Of a DNA stretch of 64,000 bases, positions 12,578 through 23,182 are shown piece after piece (position 1 is the stretch's first letter; every line of letters starts with the position of its first letter). Under the pieces are notes generated by a model that did not search any database, had not been told where the DNA came from, and saw only the letters and a list, made by a program, of their open reading frames with translations. Source of the stretch: Paramyrothecium sp. XJ0827 (taxonomy: Eukaryota > Ascomycota > Sordariomycetes > Hypocreales > Stachybotryaceae); the NCBI GenBank assembly GCA_020881915.1, contig JAJFPB010000004.1:5022001-5086000 (forward strand). The letters run 5' to 3'. Both the position numbers and the translations under genes were made by a program.

Positions 12578-13623
12578 ATGCCTTCACCCTCAGTCCTTGT
12601 TCTTGGTGCTAGTGGATTTCTTGGCGTATACGTGTCTCAGGAATTGATCCGTCAGCGCTCCAGATTCTCTCGCGTGGCGGTTCTTACCGAGGCATCTAAG
12701 CGGCACAAGTTTGAGGCCCTCGAAGCTCAAGGAATTGAGATCGTCTTGGGATCTTATCTTGATGCGAATTCATTCAAGGGTCAGTCTCCTTGACCTGCAA
12801 TTGCAATGGTCATCCACTAGCACATTCTTACCTAGTCTCGCCAGGTTTTGATACTGTCTACTCTCTTCTGGGCAATCACGCCATGAAGGACCAACCTGCA
12901 ATCATCGATGCGGCTATCAGTGGCGGCGTAACCGAGTTCTACCCCTCTGAATATGGTTCCGATTTTTCGCAGGACGGTTACCGAACCAACCGCTACTTTC
13001 GTGACAAATTGGTTACCAGGGCGCACCTCGAGAAAGTCGCAAAAGAGAATCCAAGCTTTAACTACACCTACATCATGGTAGGAGGCTTCACTGAGTATGC
13101 TCTCGATCCACTATTTGGTATCGATATCAAGGATCATACCTTTACGTTCTATGGAACGCCAGAAAAGCAAGAAGCTCTAACTGCCACAGCCGAGTAAGTG
13201 CCTCTATTGTATCCCCTATGTTAATTGTACACTTTTAACATCCATCTTGATAGTGTTGCCAAGTACATTGTCGAATCCACATTTTTGCCCAAGTCCGAGC
13301 ATGGAGGAGAGAGAGGTTTTCGCGTTCCTGGGGGCCTTTACTCCTGGCAGGAAATCGTCGATGCAATCTCGGCCGCTCAAGGTGTCCCGTACACCTGTAC
13401 CTACTTACCACTAAAGGAGGCTGTCGAAAAGGCTTCAGAATGTCTGAAGGCAGGAGATGTTGACGGGGAGTTGAAGTTCTCCTTGAAGGCATTGATGGGC
13501 GGTACTTCTACCGTTACTGTTCCGAAGCCATGGGACAATGAACTGTTTCCATTTCAGCCTGAGGGCCTGCACAGCACTCTCAATCGATTTTTCTCCGAGA
13601 GAAAGAAGGCCGGTCAGGAGTGA
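12578..13623 (+). CDS. NmrA-like / isoflavone-reductase-like NAD(P)-binding protein
   Basis: Exons 12578-12779, 12845-13193 and 13254-13623 give 306 aa. The first 16 residues hold a Rossmann dinucleotide loop, GASGFLG (10-16). The middle has the family pattern GFDTVYSLLG and FYPSEYGSDF, and the C-terminal half has the NmrA-type region (FRVPGGLYSWQEIVDAI). Members are atypical short-chain dehydrogenases: some reduce small phenolic or terpenoid substrates, others only sense NAD(P) redox state. The gene is convergent with the regulator at 13897-15432 and lies 3 kb from the terpene synthase, so it may be a tailoring reductase of that cluster; this is inference from position. Confidence 0.85.
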
Positions 13624-13896
13624 TGACGAAGCACATTGTTAATGGTGCACATGAGTAGGACGAAGAGTGGCATGGCGTGACCCAAGTCAATTGACAAGCT
13701 ATTTGCTTCATGGCGGATCTCAAAAGGCTACACATCAGCGCGGAGCAGCAAGATAGTAATATTCATGTCACGGCTAAATACTATATGAGTTCTGTAACTA
13801 GCTGCTGCTCTTGAATTGGCAACGAGCTGACTTTCATTACTGGAAGATCCAAACCTGTCCCTTGCCACGCATCTCCCATCACTTTACAATGAAGAT

Positions 13897-15432
13897 CTAT
13901 ATCTCCACCAATGGACGTAGAAGCTCAGCTTCTTCGTCAAGCAAAGTTCTCACCCAGAGTAGAGTGGAAACGACTGTGACAATTTCGTCCCAGTTGGCAA
14001 GTCCCATCACCTGAGCAGTTTGGCTGATCCTGTTGCAGAACCAAACCTGCTCCTCACCAGTCACTTCAACGGCTGCTAGAATGCAAGCCCAAATCATCAA
14101 TATCCGAAATTTGGTCCATGCATTTGCATGTACTTGTAGAATCTTTCTCAATTTCCTCGTCTCAATCCCCGTGAAAACAAGTCGGGCCTCGAACCGCCGG
14201 CGAATCTTGCTCAAAAGTATGAGAGCTGCCAAGCGACAGCATTCGTTGGCATAATTGGACGCGTCAATGTCTTCCAAGTCGATGGTCGATTCGAGAAGCC
14301 TGTATGTTATCGGATCGACGTAATCCAGCATAAAAGCCTTGTTTTGCCAGAGTAATCCATGGTCTAGCTCTTGCCTCATGACCATCACTGTCACAGACAA
14401 ATCCAAAAATATGCCGCTGAGGCAGTCATCCGAAGGGAATATAGACTGCCACATGTTCAGCTCTCCCACGTGATCAACTGGAAGCCACCATGGAGCTTCG
14501 CGGTTTGAGCGATGCCAGTCGCTTCTAGCTTTTAGTGGAAGAGGAAACTTCAATGGGACGTTCTGGAAACACGACAGGGCAACATCGATCCTAAAATTAA
14601 TTAGATCTGCATGACTTGCTCAACATTTGAAACGTGAAAGCCTACCCAGAAAGGAGAAGCCTAAGGATCAGGTTGTGATTCAAAGCATTGGCTCCACCCT
14701 TTAACCTAATTAATGTAAGGAGGCCACCTAGATGTGACTGATACTCTCCCCAGTCTCCCTTATAGTACTTGAGACAGGACCGAGATTAGCGACAGTTCTC
14801 ATATGTGAGCAGAGAGCATCTCACTGAAAAGCACGTGAATGCTACAATGGTTCCAATAACTCCATCGGTGACAGCCAGGCTTGGGTTTGATAACCTTTGG
14901 TTGATGGATCGAACTGCCAGCGCGTGAAACTTGGAAGACTGGTTCTCAGCACCTGGCTGAGAACCACGATAGCCGACTTGTCGTGACACAAACGACAAGA
15001 TTTCGTAAAAGAATGCTGGGTCTGAAAGGCTAAGCGGAAACCACGTCTCCCTGAAAGGCCGGATCCAAGAAGATGAAGAAGTGTAGACTACATGGCTCGT
15101 CAGTAATTGAACGCACCAGAAGCAACTGCAGGGAATGTACCGTAATCGACCAACAAAAGTATGTCAGAGTTCACCGGAATTGGAAAATGCACAAACGGGT
15201 CAATTCGACTTCCCCCGACGACAAGATCTATACTTGGCTTCGCAAGGAGAGAGTGTGACATTCTCTCATGACCATCGCCTTTAGATTGAGCCTGCTGAGC
15301 AACGCCTTTCTCGCGCCTTTTCACAACAATCTCTTTCATGAGCTGTCTTCGGATCTGCTTCCTGAGCGCCTTGTCCGTCACAGCCTTCCCTGTCTCGGAA
15401 ACCGGCACAAACAGGAAGCTTGTATTGCTCAT
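13897..15432 (-). CDS. Fungal-specific transcription factor (Fungal_trans_2 type), no zinc cluster
   Basis: Four exons on the minus strand: 15432-15127, 15046-14825, 14767-14646 and 14590-13897 (447 aa). The start MSNTSFLFVPVSE followed by the basic KALRKQIRRQLMKE, then SRIDPFVHFPIPV, FHALAVRSINQRL, GVIGTIVAF and ITYRLLE..ECCRLAALI, is the standard layout of the PF11951-type proteins. No CxxC zinc cluster is present at the N-terminus, which is common in this group; such proteins may act through partners or be decayed regulators. The first donor is uncertain, since two phase-compatible choices exist near 15108-15140. Its place between the NmrA-like gene and the terpene synthase makes it the natural candidate local regulator. 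Confidence 0.75.
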
Positions 15433-16666
15433 GATGCACAGCCTGATCTGATACCCCTCACAAATATGACGAAAGAAAGACAACAAACCTTGAAACAGGA
15501 TTGCTTCATGGACATACGGACATTGCTGACTCTTATGTAAGATTGGCCCCCTCAATGCCTCTGTGTCCGAACTACCCAATCGGATCACAACGCGTTGCAT
15601 GGCTTACCAAGCATAGCTGCAACCGTAATTTATGGAGCTCTCGTCCACTGAAGTTTCGTTTCGTAGGCTGCTCCTTATCATGATGTGCAGTGCGCAGGAC
15701 CTCTGGTGCGCTCGATATGCAGAGCATCAACAGGTACGGTGATATTCGCAACTTGACAGACGACCACGTCCAACTCCTTTAATCAAGCAAGGTTTCAGCT
15801 CAAATTAGCGCCCAAGACAGTATTTCAAGGCTTCGTTGCGTGTTTTTTTAGCCATCTGAACTGTACCAGCGCGGCGCACTGACTTGGTCGCCCGGTCATG
15901 CTCTCTAATCAGCCTTCAACTCGGGCTCAATTGCTTGGTAGGGAAGAACTCCACAGACAGCATGGCAACAACACTTCGCAGGACAGACCTTGAGAGCACT
16001 TACATTAACACAGTCCGCGGCAACCCCGACAGCAATTAGCTACTAGGCGATGTGTGCTTGGCAGCCGGAGAATTGGATCTTTCGAAATGATTTCTCCATC
16101 TCCAATTGGACAATCGATTCACTTATCAAGATAGAGCAGGCTTCAGGAGCTCTGTAACACCTTGTGTCACACACGAGCCCAGTCACCACTTCTTCGACTA
16201 CCTCATCACCATAATCCTAAGTAGTACGAGAGTAAACCTCATATCGCCGCGGAAAGTAGATTCCCGTAGTCCTGAAAGCACAATTTACTCCATTAAATTG
16301 CCGGATAGCGGGTCGAACATCGAATGTGCCACCTCTCGAGGCTCTAGTCATTCCATTTAGTGGTTAAGTAGGGCACATCGTGAAATAGAGCTAGCTATCA
16401 AACTCTCCCGTACATTGGGCCACGGGAAGTCTCAATGTATTGCTACACAAAGTTTCAGCCTCCGGAGATATGGTAGTATCGGACATCACCGAGAGAGACG
16501 GTTACTGGGATATTATAGATACAGGGCACAAACGTAAAAATGACCTGGAAACCACTCGCTAGGGCATGGAGATAGTAAACAAGCAACCGCAATTCAATGT
16601 CTTCGGTTGACTCTCATTTATACTTTACGGTCGTCCAGGATCGACTGCATTTCACCTTGATGCCAA
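15433..16666. other. Intergenic, gene-free
   Basis: 1.2 kb. No family-like frame was found on either strand. It contains the promoter of the minus-strand regulator and the 3' region of the terpene synthase gene. Confidence 0.45.
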
Positions 16667-17923
16667 CTAAGCACATTCATTCCTCAGCAGTGGCTTGATG
16701 GCTGGGAAAACAGTTTCCGCACGGGCCTGAAGGGAATAAAAATGAGCCTCCCAAACTCTCTTGCATGGGTCACACAGCTTAACACCACCAAATTGCCCTG
16801 GTGTGTCTGCGCCGTAGCTGTCACGATGTTGACAGTTCTTGCATCTCCCGTTGTCCTCCAGCATCTCCGCGAGTCCTTCGAAAAGCAGACCTTCTTTGCG
16901 ATCGATGATGGCCTGGTAGCGTGCCTCGTCAATAGACCTGTCCGGAAACGGATCGACGCGGTACCAAAGCTTGACGTTCTGGCGGCTCTCCTCAATTATA
17001 CTCTCCTTTTCTGGGCGTCCAACCATCAGGTCGTCTTCAACGTAGCGGTAACGCCGCATCTCCATGTGAATGGGCCCACCAAAAGGACGAATCAAATTGA
17101 GAGCGATAACGTGCGGCAATGACCGGGCAAAAACCGTGTCCAGGGCCCAAAGGAGCTCGCGGCAATGCTTGAAGCTCTCCTGCCGAAGCGCAGGGTCAAG
17201 GTAGGCAAAGGTGTTATGCGTTTCACCCTCCGCGCGATGCTTGTAGAAAGCCGCCGCGTCATAAAGAATGTTGCCCACTTCGGCCATGATGGAGATCTCA
17301 TCTTCCTCAAACCAAAAGTCATTAATGTCATTGCACGTTATTGCTGCGGCAATGGCGGTCCGCAGAAGGGAATCATCATCCCGGATACGGTACCAATTCA
17401 GAGGAGAGCGAGCAATGGCATCGATGTAGCGGCGGAACAGGGTGGTATTGCGCCGACCGCTCGACTTCTCGGCGGCGAGCAGAAGAAAGGCTCGATACTC
17501 TCGACCCATGGCGGTGTGGCAAGGCGTTCCCGCATAGAGCGTGTCCATCAGAGCGCCGACGTCGTAACCCAGTACATGATCGCTGGCGGCGATGTCAACG
17601 AGATCCCCTCGAAACTCAGCAATAGTGGCGATGATAGTGATACGGACGAAGGCGATGTACCGGTCCCAGTTTGTATACTGCGGAATCACACACCGAGCAT
17701 ACTCCCAGGCGCAGGCAAAAGTCTCTTTCACAAACTTCTCTGGGAGATCAAAGCCTTGAAGGTCGTTTTCAATCTCGGAAGGGTAAAACCACCTGTCCTG
17801 TTTCTTTGGGGCTGTCTTCGGAGCCTTACTTCTCTGGTTTTGGTTTCGAAGCGGTGGGCTGTTGCTGGGAACAACACTGATTCGTCCCTCACCACCTTCA
17901 GATAAGTCAATGTGCGCTACCAT
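16667..17923 (-). CDS. ABA3-type sesquiterpene synthase (alpha-ionylideneethane synthase family)
   Basis: Single exon, 418 aa. I recognise the family of Botrytis cinerea ABA3, an unusual sesquiterpene synthase that turns farnesyl diphosphate into alpha-ionylideneethane for fungal abscisic acid. Family-like blocks are WFYPSEIENDLQ (45-56), CAWEYARCVIPQYTNWDRY (71-89), AEFRGDLVD (102-110), the acidic CNDINDFWFEEDE (197-209), AAAFYKHRAEGETH (223-236) and RPFGGPIHMEMRRYRYVE (279-296). A C-terminal CxxC..CxxC (Cys361, 364, 384, 387) could bind zinc. The canonical terpene-synthase DDxxD and NSE motifs are absent, as expected. The protein is cytosolic, with no signal or membrane segment. A P450 diverges from it across 0.8 kb. 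The family is firm; the product may differ from the abscisic acid precursor. Confidence 0.85.
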   Translation of the reverse strand: MVAHIDLSEGGEGRISVVPSNSPPLRNQNQRSKAPKTAPKKQDRWFYPSEIENDLQGFDLPEKFVKETFACAWEYARCVIPQYTNWDRYIAFVRITIIATIAEFRGDLVDIAASDHVLGYDVGALMDTLYAGTPCHTAMGREYRAFLLLAAEKSSGRRNTTLFRRYIDAIARSPLNWYRIRDDDSLLRTAIAAAITCNDINDFWFEEDEISIMAEVGNILYDAAAFYKHRAEGETHNTFAYLDPALRQESFKHCRELLWALDTVFARSLPHVIALNLIRPFGGPIHMEMRRYRYVEDDLMVGRPEKESIIEESRQNVKLWYRVDPFPDRSIDEARYQAIIDRKEGLLFEGLAEMLEDNGRCKNCQHRDSYGADTPGQFGGVKLCDPCKRVWEAHFYSLQARAETVFPAIKPLLRNECA

Positions 17924-18715
17924 AATTTCTGCTTTGAAATGAAAGTAAGAGGGTTTCTCGTCAAGCTTTAGAGATACGGAGACTCCTACGACGGAGTTTC
18001 GCGTTATCAGTCTACGGCGGCTATCTTATAGTTGCAAACACAAAGTGGCTAGAGTAATCGCATCCGCAGCGTTGCTTGCCTCTTCTCAGCCCTCGTTGTT
18101 GGTCAGATGAATGAGCAACCCTGTCTCGCCTCCAACCAACTGCTAGCATCAGCGCTTACACTGGATGCGTCAGTTGACGCCAATAGTTGGGGGCTGTGAG
18201 GGGTTCGCTGCGTCCTAACCAGTAGAACAGGCTGGAGGAGGATCTGGTTGATATCTATCTCACGTCGCGAGCCTCTTTTCAGATATTATGCGCGCATGCA
18301 TCGCAGCCTAGATATCACTTTGACGTATCCATGTGACACTAAATCACGAATGGGGCTAATAATTTTGGCTACCACATCCGACCATTCCCGCGCACGATGC
18401 AATCAAACACTTAGATCGAGCTAGAAAGCAGAAGAAGCGTCTCTCATTCGTCAACGTACAAGCGGCTTTTTGCTGTCATGTGGACAGAATGTCGAGTCCA
18501 TATCAGTCGGGCGTAGACTAGGATCGAGATTCATGCATGGACCTAAGGACAGGTTGAGCAGCGTGAGATCTGTGTCTTGTCAGCTGCTTCAGTTAAGCGA
18601 CCTGGATTTCGTAGCATTTTTCGAAGAGTGAATCCTTTATAAATACAATCCTGCTTCTTTTTGATTAGTTGTTCCCCACAAGTCGTTCCTAAACATCTTC
18701 GATATTGAATGCTCC
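17924..18715. promoter_or_regulatory. Bidirectional promoter between terpene synthase and P450
   Basis: 0.8 kb shared upstream region. Near the synthase start, at 17977-17996, CGGAG occurs twice with CTCC between, a layout that could serve a zinc-cluster protein, though it falls within the likely 5' leader. A TATA box for the P450 lies at 18638. Confidence 0.45.
18638..18644 (+). promoter_or_regulatory. TATA box of the P450 gene
   Basis: TATAAAT at 72-78 bp before the ATG of the P450. Confidence 0.5.
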
Positions 18716-20528
18716 ATGCCAATTGCAACAGCCATGACATCTTTCACTCAACCAAGCCTCACGGTGCTTTATGCAACGCTATTCTTGGTGCTTTGGGCAT
18801 TGTTTGTTGCTATTTACAGGCGCTTTTTCCACCCCCTCGCCAACGTGCCGGGCCCGTATCTCTGGGCGATTTCTGGACTTCCTCTTTTGTACTATCAAGG
18901 CATCAAAGAAGGGACTCTCGTGTACGAGCTTCCGCGCTTACACGGTATATATGGTATGGTTCTTCTACTTATCTGCTGGATTTCTTTCTGCGCTAACGCA
19001 ATGGACTGGAGTGCCATAGGTCCTGTTCTCCGCATTGCACCAAATGAAGTCCATATAAGCGAGCCCAGTGACTACGACAAAATATACCACGTCGGCTCGA
19101 AATTCCTCAAAGACCCGAACTACTATAAGCCCCTTGAAGGCCCGGTCCGGGCTCCAGTCCTATTCACGATGCTTAATCCGGATGCCCATCGAGTACGCAG
19201 GAACGCGGTCAGCCCATTCTTTTCCCGCCGTTCAGTCAATGAACTGGAAGGGCTGATCTGGCGTAAAGTACACAAGCTCTGCAATATCATACAACTTCAC
19301 CTGGATTCTCAGCCAAGAGAAAGGTTTGACGCTTACGGCGCCTTTCGGGCCTACTCTGTTGATGTTGTTACAGAATATTCTTACGCACGCAGCTGGGATC
19401 ACCTGGATGAGGAAGGTTTCGGATCCTGGTTTCCGGACTCCCTTCGTAATGTGCAATTGTTGTTTATATGGTGTCAGACATTTCCGTTCTTGGTTCCAAT
19501 TCTGGCCCTGATTCCCGATTCGCTCCAGACTGCAATCTTCCCCTTGTATAAGCATTGGTTGAACACATTGCAGGTCGTCCGGGATGCTGTCAAAGAAGTA
19601 CGAAAAGAAGTATCGTCTGGCATAAAGCCTACAAGAAGGACTGTCTTTCATGATCTGATCGATATAGGTTCTTCGAAATCTTCAGCTGAAAAGTTTCAAG
19701 ATTCCTTGTCAGATGAAGTTGTCTTTGCCGACGCTCTCCAGTTGACAGGGGCCGCAGCTGAGACTGCGGGATCGACGATAGAGCGTGGAGTATACGAAGT
19801 GCTCAGCAACGTTGTTATTTACGAGGAGTTGACTCGGGAGCTTCGAGAAGCGTTTCCATCCATCGAGGCTATGAATATGGCGGCTTTGGAAAAACTTCCC
19901 TACTTGGGTGGAGTTGTGAGAGAAGCTCTCAGGTAAGATTATGAATGACCTGTTATTATGCATCACGGCTGGATGTGATTTCAGTGATGCACCTCGAAAT
20001 TTCTATCCAATGACGCATCTAACACAGTCATAGACTCCATCCTGGTATCCCTGGTCGTCTGCCACGGGTAGTTCCACACAGTGGCGCAACGTTTGGCAAC
20101 ATCACACTTCCACCAGGAACCGTCGTCAGTATGAGCGCTTACACGATGTAGGTTCGAGATACAGTGGAGCTGATTGTCGGACGGGCTGACACCAACCTTC
20201 CTACAGACACCAGAACGCAGTAGCATTTCCAGATCCACAAGTCTTTGATCCAAACCGCTGGATAGGTCCCGAGGCAGACATTCGTCAGCGAGAAAGGTAT
20301 CTTGTATCCTTTAGTAAAGGAACCAGGAATTGCGTCGGAGAAACTCTTGCCATGTTCAAGATCTATTGCTCTCTTGCAGCTTTCTTCTATCAGTTTAATG
20401 ACTTGAAAGTTGCTCGGGGATTCGACCGCTGCCATCTAGACATGGTCGAGTTGTTCATTGGCTATCATCCCAGGCAAGCGATGAGGTTTGGGTTCGTGGG
20501 GAAGGCGAAGGATGATGGTGCACATTGA
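18716..20528 (+). CDS. Cytochrome P450 monooxygenase
   Basis: Exons 18716-18953, 19020-19932, 20034-20147 and 20207-20528 give 528 aa. An N-terminal membrane anchor (VLYATLFLVLWALFVAIY) is followed by the hinge HPLANVPGP. The I-helix reads GAAAETAGST, the ExxR pair is in REALRLHP, the PERF-like region is FDPNRWIGPE, and the heme loop is FSKGTRNCVG with Cys464 as the iron ligand. The first intron is 66 nt with no stop, so it can be missed by simple frame reading. It sits at the ER facing the cytosol and would oxidise the product of the divergent terpene synthase; abscisic acid clusters carry two P450s, and only this one is seen here. All key residues are intact. The P450 family cannot be assigned by eye. 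Confidence 0.92.
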
Positions 20529-20741: not shown

Positions 20742-22285
20742 TTAACACAGGATAGACTCGAAGGTCCCCGTTCTAAAAGTTCCTTCTTCCGTGGTATTGA
20801 GCTGTACAGCTAATCCTTCCCGGATAGTGCCTGGCTCGTTTGCTGAGAATTGGACAAAGCGACGACCGGCAAGCAAGCTCTGAACACCAATAGTCGCACC
20901 CAAAGTACTGTCGGGAACAGTTTCGGCACTAGTATCGGTATCAAGGCTGGCACTATTCCCAACGGTGGAATAAAGGTAGGTCACAATGCCGGGTCTGTCC
21001 TCGAAGAAAGTGGCTGTAAACCTATAAGGTTCATAAGACGGTCCGATACGCCGCGCAACCCACTCGAAGGTTGCCGTGCGGGCACCGACCTCAGAGCCCA
21101 GCACTTGAAAGCCGACATATTCGCCATTACTTGGATCAAGTACCAAGTCATCAAAATAGGGGAGGATGGAAACTGGAGGAAGTTTAGGGTCTGGCAGTAC
21201 GCCGTTGCTGAATCTATCCGAGTCGTCATAGAGTGATAACCGTCCATTAATGTTGATGTAAACAATGGTATGAAACGCGTTGAACACAGTGATCGGAAAT
21301 GGTAGAACAACTTGAGCGGAATCATCGTCGCCTGCTTCAAGGAGCTTCATAGGGCTGGGCATGGTTGCGTACTCCGCACAAGCTTTTGGAGTCGGGATTA
21401 TGACTCTAGATGTGGTGGTGCTTGTTGCGGTTGGCTCGCTAGACGGACTGACACTGGGCACTGGCGTTGTCCATGGGGCTGGCACGCATTGTTCGGCTAA
21501 TTTGACAAGTAAGCATTGGCACAGGAGGCGTTGGATGTTTGGGGTTCCATCATACCTGGAGAGGCGATAAGGAATACGTCTTCACAGTCGGACGGAGTCA
21601 GGGTAAATGTGAGGTATACTTGACCACTTTTAGGATCTTGACAAAAGCCGGCCTCACCCTCCGGCAATGCCGGGTTCCTGAAACGCAGACGCCCATCAGT
21701 GATGGAAAAGGTCGTTGTCACAGCTTCAGCTGTAGGTGATTCTCGAGTAGGAAAATCCTTGAAGCTTTCACCATTTTCGTAGAAGGTAGGGACCTGGTCA
21801 AACGAAAGTTGACCGGAGATCAAGACGAATACGGCGGCAGCATCGCAGTTTGAAGGATTCGGATCGATTCCACCACCGACAAAGCCCCCAAGCGCTCTCT
21901 CCGCCACACTGCGCTTCGAGACTCCTTGTGCTGGGACAATAGAGAATATGACCTTTTGAACGGGTGCCACACTTTGAGTTGGGATCACGGATGAAGATGA
22001 TGATGTGGAGCCAGACGGTGTGACTGTAGGCGAATGGGTGTGATGAGTTCCTTTGTGGGTATGTTGAGCTGTTGAATGCGTGTGGTGAACTCCGGAGTGC
22101 GTATGATGGCTTCCAGAGTGCGAGTGATGACCTCCCGTCTTTGAAGTATGGACTGGGACAAGGAAGGTTGATAGATATGTAACGCACAATGAGCCGTGCA
22201 GCTGGTCCAGGTTCTGAGCATGTTGATGAGCGCTTGCAGGACCGACTCCTGCAAGCAGAAGGGCTAAGGATGACGTCCACTTCAT
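20742..22285 (-). CDS. Secreted wall/adhesin-like protein with His-rich repeat (DUF7908-like plus C-terminal beta domain)
   Basis: Exons 22285-21556 and 21496-20742 around a 59-nt intron (GTATGA donor) give 494 aa. A signal peptide (residues 1-19) is followed by a His/Thr/Ser-rich block at residues 53-85 with units such as HHTHS, then a Ser/Thr linker. Next comes a DUF7908-like domain (about 135-245: GGIDPNPSNC, FVLISGQL), a second Ser/Thr linker, and a C-terminal domain of about 200 aa (VYININGRLSLY, ILPYFDDLVL) resembling nidogen-like extracellular domains. No GPI tail is seen, so it is probably secreted or bound through other means. The histidine block could bind Cu, Zn or Ni (inference). 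Divergent from a GPI-anchored protein gene. Confidence 0.7.
22031..22129 (-). repeat. Coding repeat for HHTHS-type units
   Basis: Six degenerate 15-24-bp units within the secreted-protein gene encode clusters of His separated by Thr/Ser/Gly. It looks like a short minisatellite that has diverged, with selection keeping the histidines. Confidence 0.75.
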
Positions 22286-23182
22286 TGCTGCAGCTCACAG
22301 ATGTACGTCTTGCCAGGAAGAAATTGACAAAAGCAGAACCGAAAGGTGGTGAAGGACATAAATGAAGGTTATGGATAAACAAGTTGCAAAAATTAACCAG
22401 CACGTCGGCAAAGACCGACGCGGCGTTTTTGCCAACAAGATGAATCACTTCATTGGCTATGCTGGTAAATCACGTAGCTTTACTCCTTCAGCATGGATTA
22501 CGTGCCGGTTGTTGAACTGGATCAGACAATTTCACGCGTTTGAAAGGCTTATAAGAGATTGAAATTCCGGGTTAATAAGGACCCCCCAGCCCAGCACGAA
22601 AAGGTCAGGGGTCCAGGAGCGCGGCAGAAGCTGAGCAAAAAACAAATTCCCATAACGAATTCAGTCTGTGGAATAGGCGAGTTCGCGCCCCAACATGTCT
22701 CAGATGCATGCCGGACCAGGGCGGTGGAATGCCCTGTACCGCATTTGACGCGTCACTGCTCCTTCTTGAGAAGCGGTTCAGGCCGATTCATTCATGCAGG
22801 AATGCCACCGGCTTGCCTTTACTATTATTGTGGGTATTGTCTTGCCGAACATCTCATTTGGTTTCCTGCTTTCGGAGAATCCTTCAACCAAATGGATCTC
22901 ACTCGCATGGGGCCGACAACATCAAGTTGACATAGAAGCGCGCCTAATCACGCCCACCTTTTGGGGATGAATTGAGCCTCCCTGGCTTTTTTATGCTCTC
23001 CTTTATATACATCAACTTCTCTTGCAGCGTCTACACCTCCGTTCGAAGAAAAGCTTTACAACACGAGCACGCTTACACTCGTTTCACTTATCGTGTGTCA
23101 TTTGAGGCACTTAATATTTTTCTTTAGCCCATTTATGCGCTTCTGCGTCTAGACTTGTCCCATCCTGCGCTTTTCCATCGAT
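22286..23182. promoter_or_regulatory. Divergent promoter region of two wall-protein genes
   Basis: 0.9 kb without a supported gene. The GPI-protein side has TATATAC at 23004-23010, 173-179 bp before its ATG, followed by a pyrimidine-rich leader. Confidence 0.45.

Follow-up and report, generated by a model that had tools for sequence, protein, structure and literature searches.

The closest described system to the locus treated here is the BcABA1-4 cluster of Botrytis cinerea for abscisic acid (ABA), in which a cytochrome P450 (P450) adjoins the sesquiterpene synthase BcABA3 and which contains two P450s and a short-chain dehydrogenase. Solved structures exist for three members of the ABA3 synthase family, and in the available portions of the literature examined (PMC12001456, PMC13288456, PMC10482981, PMC9920419, PMC6876084) BcABA3 is the sole member whose product has been shown by assay. 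Known ABA clusters vary; in Colletotrichum tofieldiae, ABA4 is located apart from ABA1-3 (available part of PMC10482981). Here we describe a locus with the same synthase family and fold, and likewise with a P450 adjoining the synthase, in a 64-kb stretch of DNA from the fungus Paramyrothecium sp. XJ0827 (the window). It lies on contig C10 of a 51.8-Mb genome assembled in 15 contigs. The locus is probably a two-gene sesquiterpenoid module, in which a divergently transcribed P450 would oxidise the product of a non-canonical ABA3-type synthase, and the end product of the module is probably not ABA. This reading is based on homology, a fold match, an intact frame, the position of the synthase outside the BcABA3 clade, and the repeated linkage of both gene families. 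Among titles and abstracts of the open-access literature, with subscription papers outside the coverage, no paper describing this pair was found. The two genes and the stretch between them are as follows; exon borders, here and below, are those of GT-AG models without transcript support.

16667..17923, minus strand: ABA3-type sesquiterpene synthase, 418 amino acids (aa), single intronless open frame
18716..20528, plus strand: likely partner cytochrome P450, 528 aa; exons 18716-18953, 19020-19932, 20034-20147, 20207-20528
17924..18715, no strand: intergenic stretch of 792 bp between the divergent genes, which may serve as a shared promoter region for both

The synthase and its place in the ABA3 family

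An earlier note on this DNA had assigned the synthase to the ABA3 type and had seen neither a DDxxD nor an NSE motif in it, and both points are borne out. The protein matches the PDB entries of BcABA3 (8zac, E 7e-139), RuABA3 (8zad, 3e-135) and SkABA3 (8zag, 3e-94); the homology to 8zac covers residues 29-410 and is thus full-length, and the protein has the ABA3 variant of the class I terpene synthase fold. The DDxxD and NSE patterns are both absent from it, unlike in the canonical class I enzymes SydA, CotB2 and aristolochene synthase, to which its aligned identity is 5-14%. Among 123 family members checked, NSE occurs in none and DDxxD in 20. An NSE look-alike at residues 198-206 misfits the pattern and is not kept as NSE in the family. 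The window synthase does carry a KHRxEGE block and a C-terminal CxxC...CxxC (names coined here from the alignment), which are found in 118 and 119 of the 123 members, respectively. The latter, at residues 361-387, is perhaps a structural metal site; the available portions of the literature examined contain no mention of it. Searches of the protein against NCBIfam (E up to 0.01) gave no family, and Pfam gave only a chance match below the cut-off. The frame is open over its full length from a start at 17923, where the relative in Paramyrothecium foliicola begins with the same residues, and departures from the family fall at columns that are at most 93% conserved elsewhere. Judged by its sequence, then, the protein is a real ABA3-type synthase. 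It would probably take farnesyl diphosphate as substrate. The route may run through neutral dienes, which have been reported as intermediates for BcABA3, and would probably end in a C15 hydrocarbon that is monocyclic and ionylideneethane-like or related to such a compound; the P450 would then oxidise it.

Within the family, the window synthase is set apart from BcABA3. A quick tree was made from the best 120 of 291 synthase matches, the window protein and two paralogues from contigs C12 and C15 of the host genome (n = 123), and a careful tree from 61 of these rows. The quick tree gives a 48-row clade containing BcABA3 and both paralogues; the window protein falls outside it, on a long stem together with the P. 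foliicola sequence and a single metagenome protein. In the careful tree, the BcABA3 clade (24 rows, support 100/99) is again without the window protein, whose own clade has support of 100/100; the branch order among the remaining fungal groups is weakly supported. The window synthase is 47-50% identical to BcABA3; set side by side, the identities are 47.5% to BcABA3, 44.6% to C12, 46.1% to C15 and 55.2% to an Amycolatopsis homologue, to which BcABA3 itself is 62.6% identical. The window clade has a state of its own at 18 of 186 conserved columns. Such changes are found at 5 of the 12 eligible columns of the helix at residues 182-196 (p 0.0025), a concentration that is less marked after correction for having picked this stretch (117 of 2000 permutations were equally dense). 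Of the outcomes that the earlier note held would speak against it, neither a synthase grouping outside the ABA3-like enzymes nor, for the P450 as distinct from the regulator, a lack of conserved linkage was seen.

The P450, its linkage and related copies in the host genome

The window P450 is a complete four-exon gene (PF00067, 172 bits), and its protein contains blocks that we take to be the ExxR and haem-binding motifs. It is the sole P450 of the window, as had been noted earlier, when a fungal P450 profile is applied to the 961 open stretches of at least 40 aa. A Pfam search for P450s in the whole genome scored 92 of 399 candidates and missed the window P450 itself; it was not used to argue for absence.

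Linkage was detected as equal listed contig sizes between synthase and P450 matches. Since the tables give the longest contig per match only, links may be missed; two size matches (9.3 and 6.1 Mb) were left out of the count. Nine of the 120 listed synthases match in listed contig with one of the 107 listed P450s. In a tree of the first 57 of these P450s, the window P450 and a copy from contig C4 of the host genome, one 21-row clade (support 100) unites the last two with seven of the linked P450s. These seven come from P. foliicola, Thozetella (two contigs), Mollisia scopiformis, Aphanocladium album, Trichoderma arundinaceum and one 18-kb contig, so that the pair occurs in Sordariomycetes and a Leotiomycete (Mollisia). 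Aphanocladium and the 18-kb contig, and likewise the window and P. foliicola, are sister pairs in both the synthase and the P450 trees. Besides the seven, two of the 19 public P450s of the clade are separated from the synthase listed for their species, being on different contigs, and the remaining 10 have no synthase of their contig among the 120 listed. By synthase clade, linked members number 0 of 46 in the BcABA3 clade vs. 7 of 48 among the others, a count that leaves out 26 first-fork rows (the 12 named ones among them are all bacterial). Thus the proximity of P450 and synthase noted earlier is seen again in seven public contigs, and once more within the host genome in a second copy of the pair, and the window P450 is likely, from these sequence comparisons, the partner of the synthase.

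Among the matches listed, the hypocrealean fungus P. foliicola is the nearest named relative for the synthase, the P450 and an NmrA-type protein discussed below. Its "alpha-ionylideneethane synthase aba3" (P0001, 83% identical) and "cytochrome P478 monooxygenase" (P0121, 82%), both named by their source, share a contig and are direct counterparts of the window pair. Names such as the former may be wrong for the branch to which the window belongs.

Eleven matches to the synthase are present in the host genome, among which the C10 gene is the only full-length open member of its subfamily. On C4, a synthase relative, whose reading passes between frames, and a P450 relative lie less than 1 kb apart on one strand. 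C2 has three synthase copies, two of them truncated near residues 201-213 and the third frame-broken and separated from its P450 by a piece of a DDE_Tnp_1_7 transposase. Because these C2 and C4 relatives are truncated or frame-broken, decay of the subfamily has occurred in this genome. Over their longest alignments, the DNA of the C2 and C4 copies agrees at 97.4-99.8%, and the near-identical decayed copies (L017, L019, L020, L021) are accompanied by DDE_Tnp_1_7 and hAT transposase pieces; a duplication between accessory chromosomes may perhaps have produced them.

The C12 and C15 synthases, members of the BcABA3 clade, lie beside mutually related P450s of a kind other than the window's; these are 23-28% identical to the window P450 and are in-genome stand-ins for BcABA1 and BcABA2, not those proteins themselves. 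At C15:447700-467699 (L022, L050), three P450 genes within ~15 kb and an aldehyde dehydrogenase accompany the synthase, and if the genome has an ABA-like cluster, this locus is likelier than the window locus to be it. At C12:1165000-1174999 (L018), the synthase is beside a P450 related to a C15 one, the sole P450 in the 30 kb examined, and an FAD oxidoreductase (PF00890) lies nearby.

Neighbouring genes and alternative readings

All four genes of the earlier note were found where it had placed them, together spanning less than 8 kb. The two further genes, and a protein that adjoins the P450 on its other side, are listed here.

13897..15432, minus strand: Fungal_trans_2 protein, 456 aa; exons 15432-15141, 15087-14825, 14767-14646, 14590-13897
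12578..13623, plus strand: NmrA/isoflavone-reductase-type oxidoreductase, 306 aa; exons 12578-12779, 12845-13193, 13254-13623
20742-22294, minus strand: DUF7908 protein (PF25485), adjoining the P450, with no sign of pathway membership

The family assignments of the first two stand (PF11951, 45.2 bits; PF05368, 71.7 bits), but the place of the NmrA-type reductase in a cluster is not supported. It is unlikely that synthase, P450, reductase and regulator form a single pathway, close together as the four genes are. The NmrA protein, whose nearest solved structures by sequence are of the isoeugenol-synthase and isoflavone-reductase-like kinds, lacks a close paralogue in the host genome (next best match 57 bits), which would suit a dedicated gene, and two weak NmrA-family matches (27-29% identity) lie on C2, ~11 and ~27 kb past the synthase-P450 pair there. 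However, none of its 33 listed relatives is on a listed contig matching any of the 120 synthases or 107 P450s. In P. foliicola the relative (72%) is on a 3.63-Mb contig, and the synthase and P450 are on one of 2.18 Mb. Nor was any match to the NmrA protein or the regulator found in the 10-kb stretches around the copies on C4 and C2. Probably, then, the NmrA-type gene is an unrelated bystander. Where the BcABA1-4 cluster has a short-chain dehydrogenase, this NmrA-family protein, not seen to be conserved, is the one oxidoreductase identified beside the window synthase. The Fungal_trans_2 protein adjoins the synthase and is plausible as a local regulator, and it is possible that it controls the pair. 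No Zn2Cys6 domain is reported in it at E up to 1, and its relatives in the host genome are weak (at most 28 bits), with none on C2 or C4. A four-gene border is not supported, and membership is supported for the synthase and P450 only.

That the window is an ABA locus, with a synthase making alpha-ionylideneethane and the missing steps encoded elsewhere, appears somewhat more doubtful still. The enzyme is of the ABA3 type, ABA clusters can be split as in C. tofieldiae, and further P450s are available beside the other ABA3-type synthases of the genome; yet it is the C12 and C15 synthases, not that of the window, that belong to the BcABA3 clade. The product is more likely not ABA because the window has one P450 vs. 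two in the known ABA cluster, because this P450 differs in family from the ones that accompany the C12 and C15 synthases, and because of the 18 clade-specific states in the synthase. The earlier suggestion of a different product is thereby supported. It is highly improbable that the two genes are neighbours by chance or that the synthase is inactive: the broken C2 and C4 relatives would fit such a view, but the C10 gene is open throughout, its departures spare the most conserved columns, and the linkage recurs in seven contigs. A two-gene module making something other than ABA is thus the preferred reading. A bolder version, offered tentatively, is that ABA3-type synthases outside the BcABA3 clade and one clade of P450s dedicated to them constitute an old two-gene ascomycete pathway to a new oxidised sesquiterpenoid, with the ABA cluster as a branch of this family that acquired other P450s. 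The compact pair is an easy target for heterologous expression, and its products would tell whether chemistry of the ABA type is a single branch within a broader family.

Bacterial ABA3-like loci

Bacterial members of the same family include SkABA3 of Shimazuella kribbensis and ABA3-like synthases from actinobacteria. When bacterial genomes were scanned, the window synthase by itself gave no relative, and an alignment of 15 homologues from the bacterial side of the family (12 of them from named bacteria) gave eight loci. At three of them (L041, L043, L044), a Pfam-confirmed P450 frame ends 5-35 bases before the synthase-matching stretch, so that an actinobacterial P450 gene lies immediately upstream in an operon-like arrangement, unlike that of the window. 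Three Streptomyces loci (L046-L048) have no P450 by profile among open frames of at least 150 aa, and L045 has a P450 piece on the opposite strand. In Umezawaea endophytica (L042, 4405-6996), two canonical terpene synthases (PF19086) are present immediately upstream of the ABA3-like synthase.
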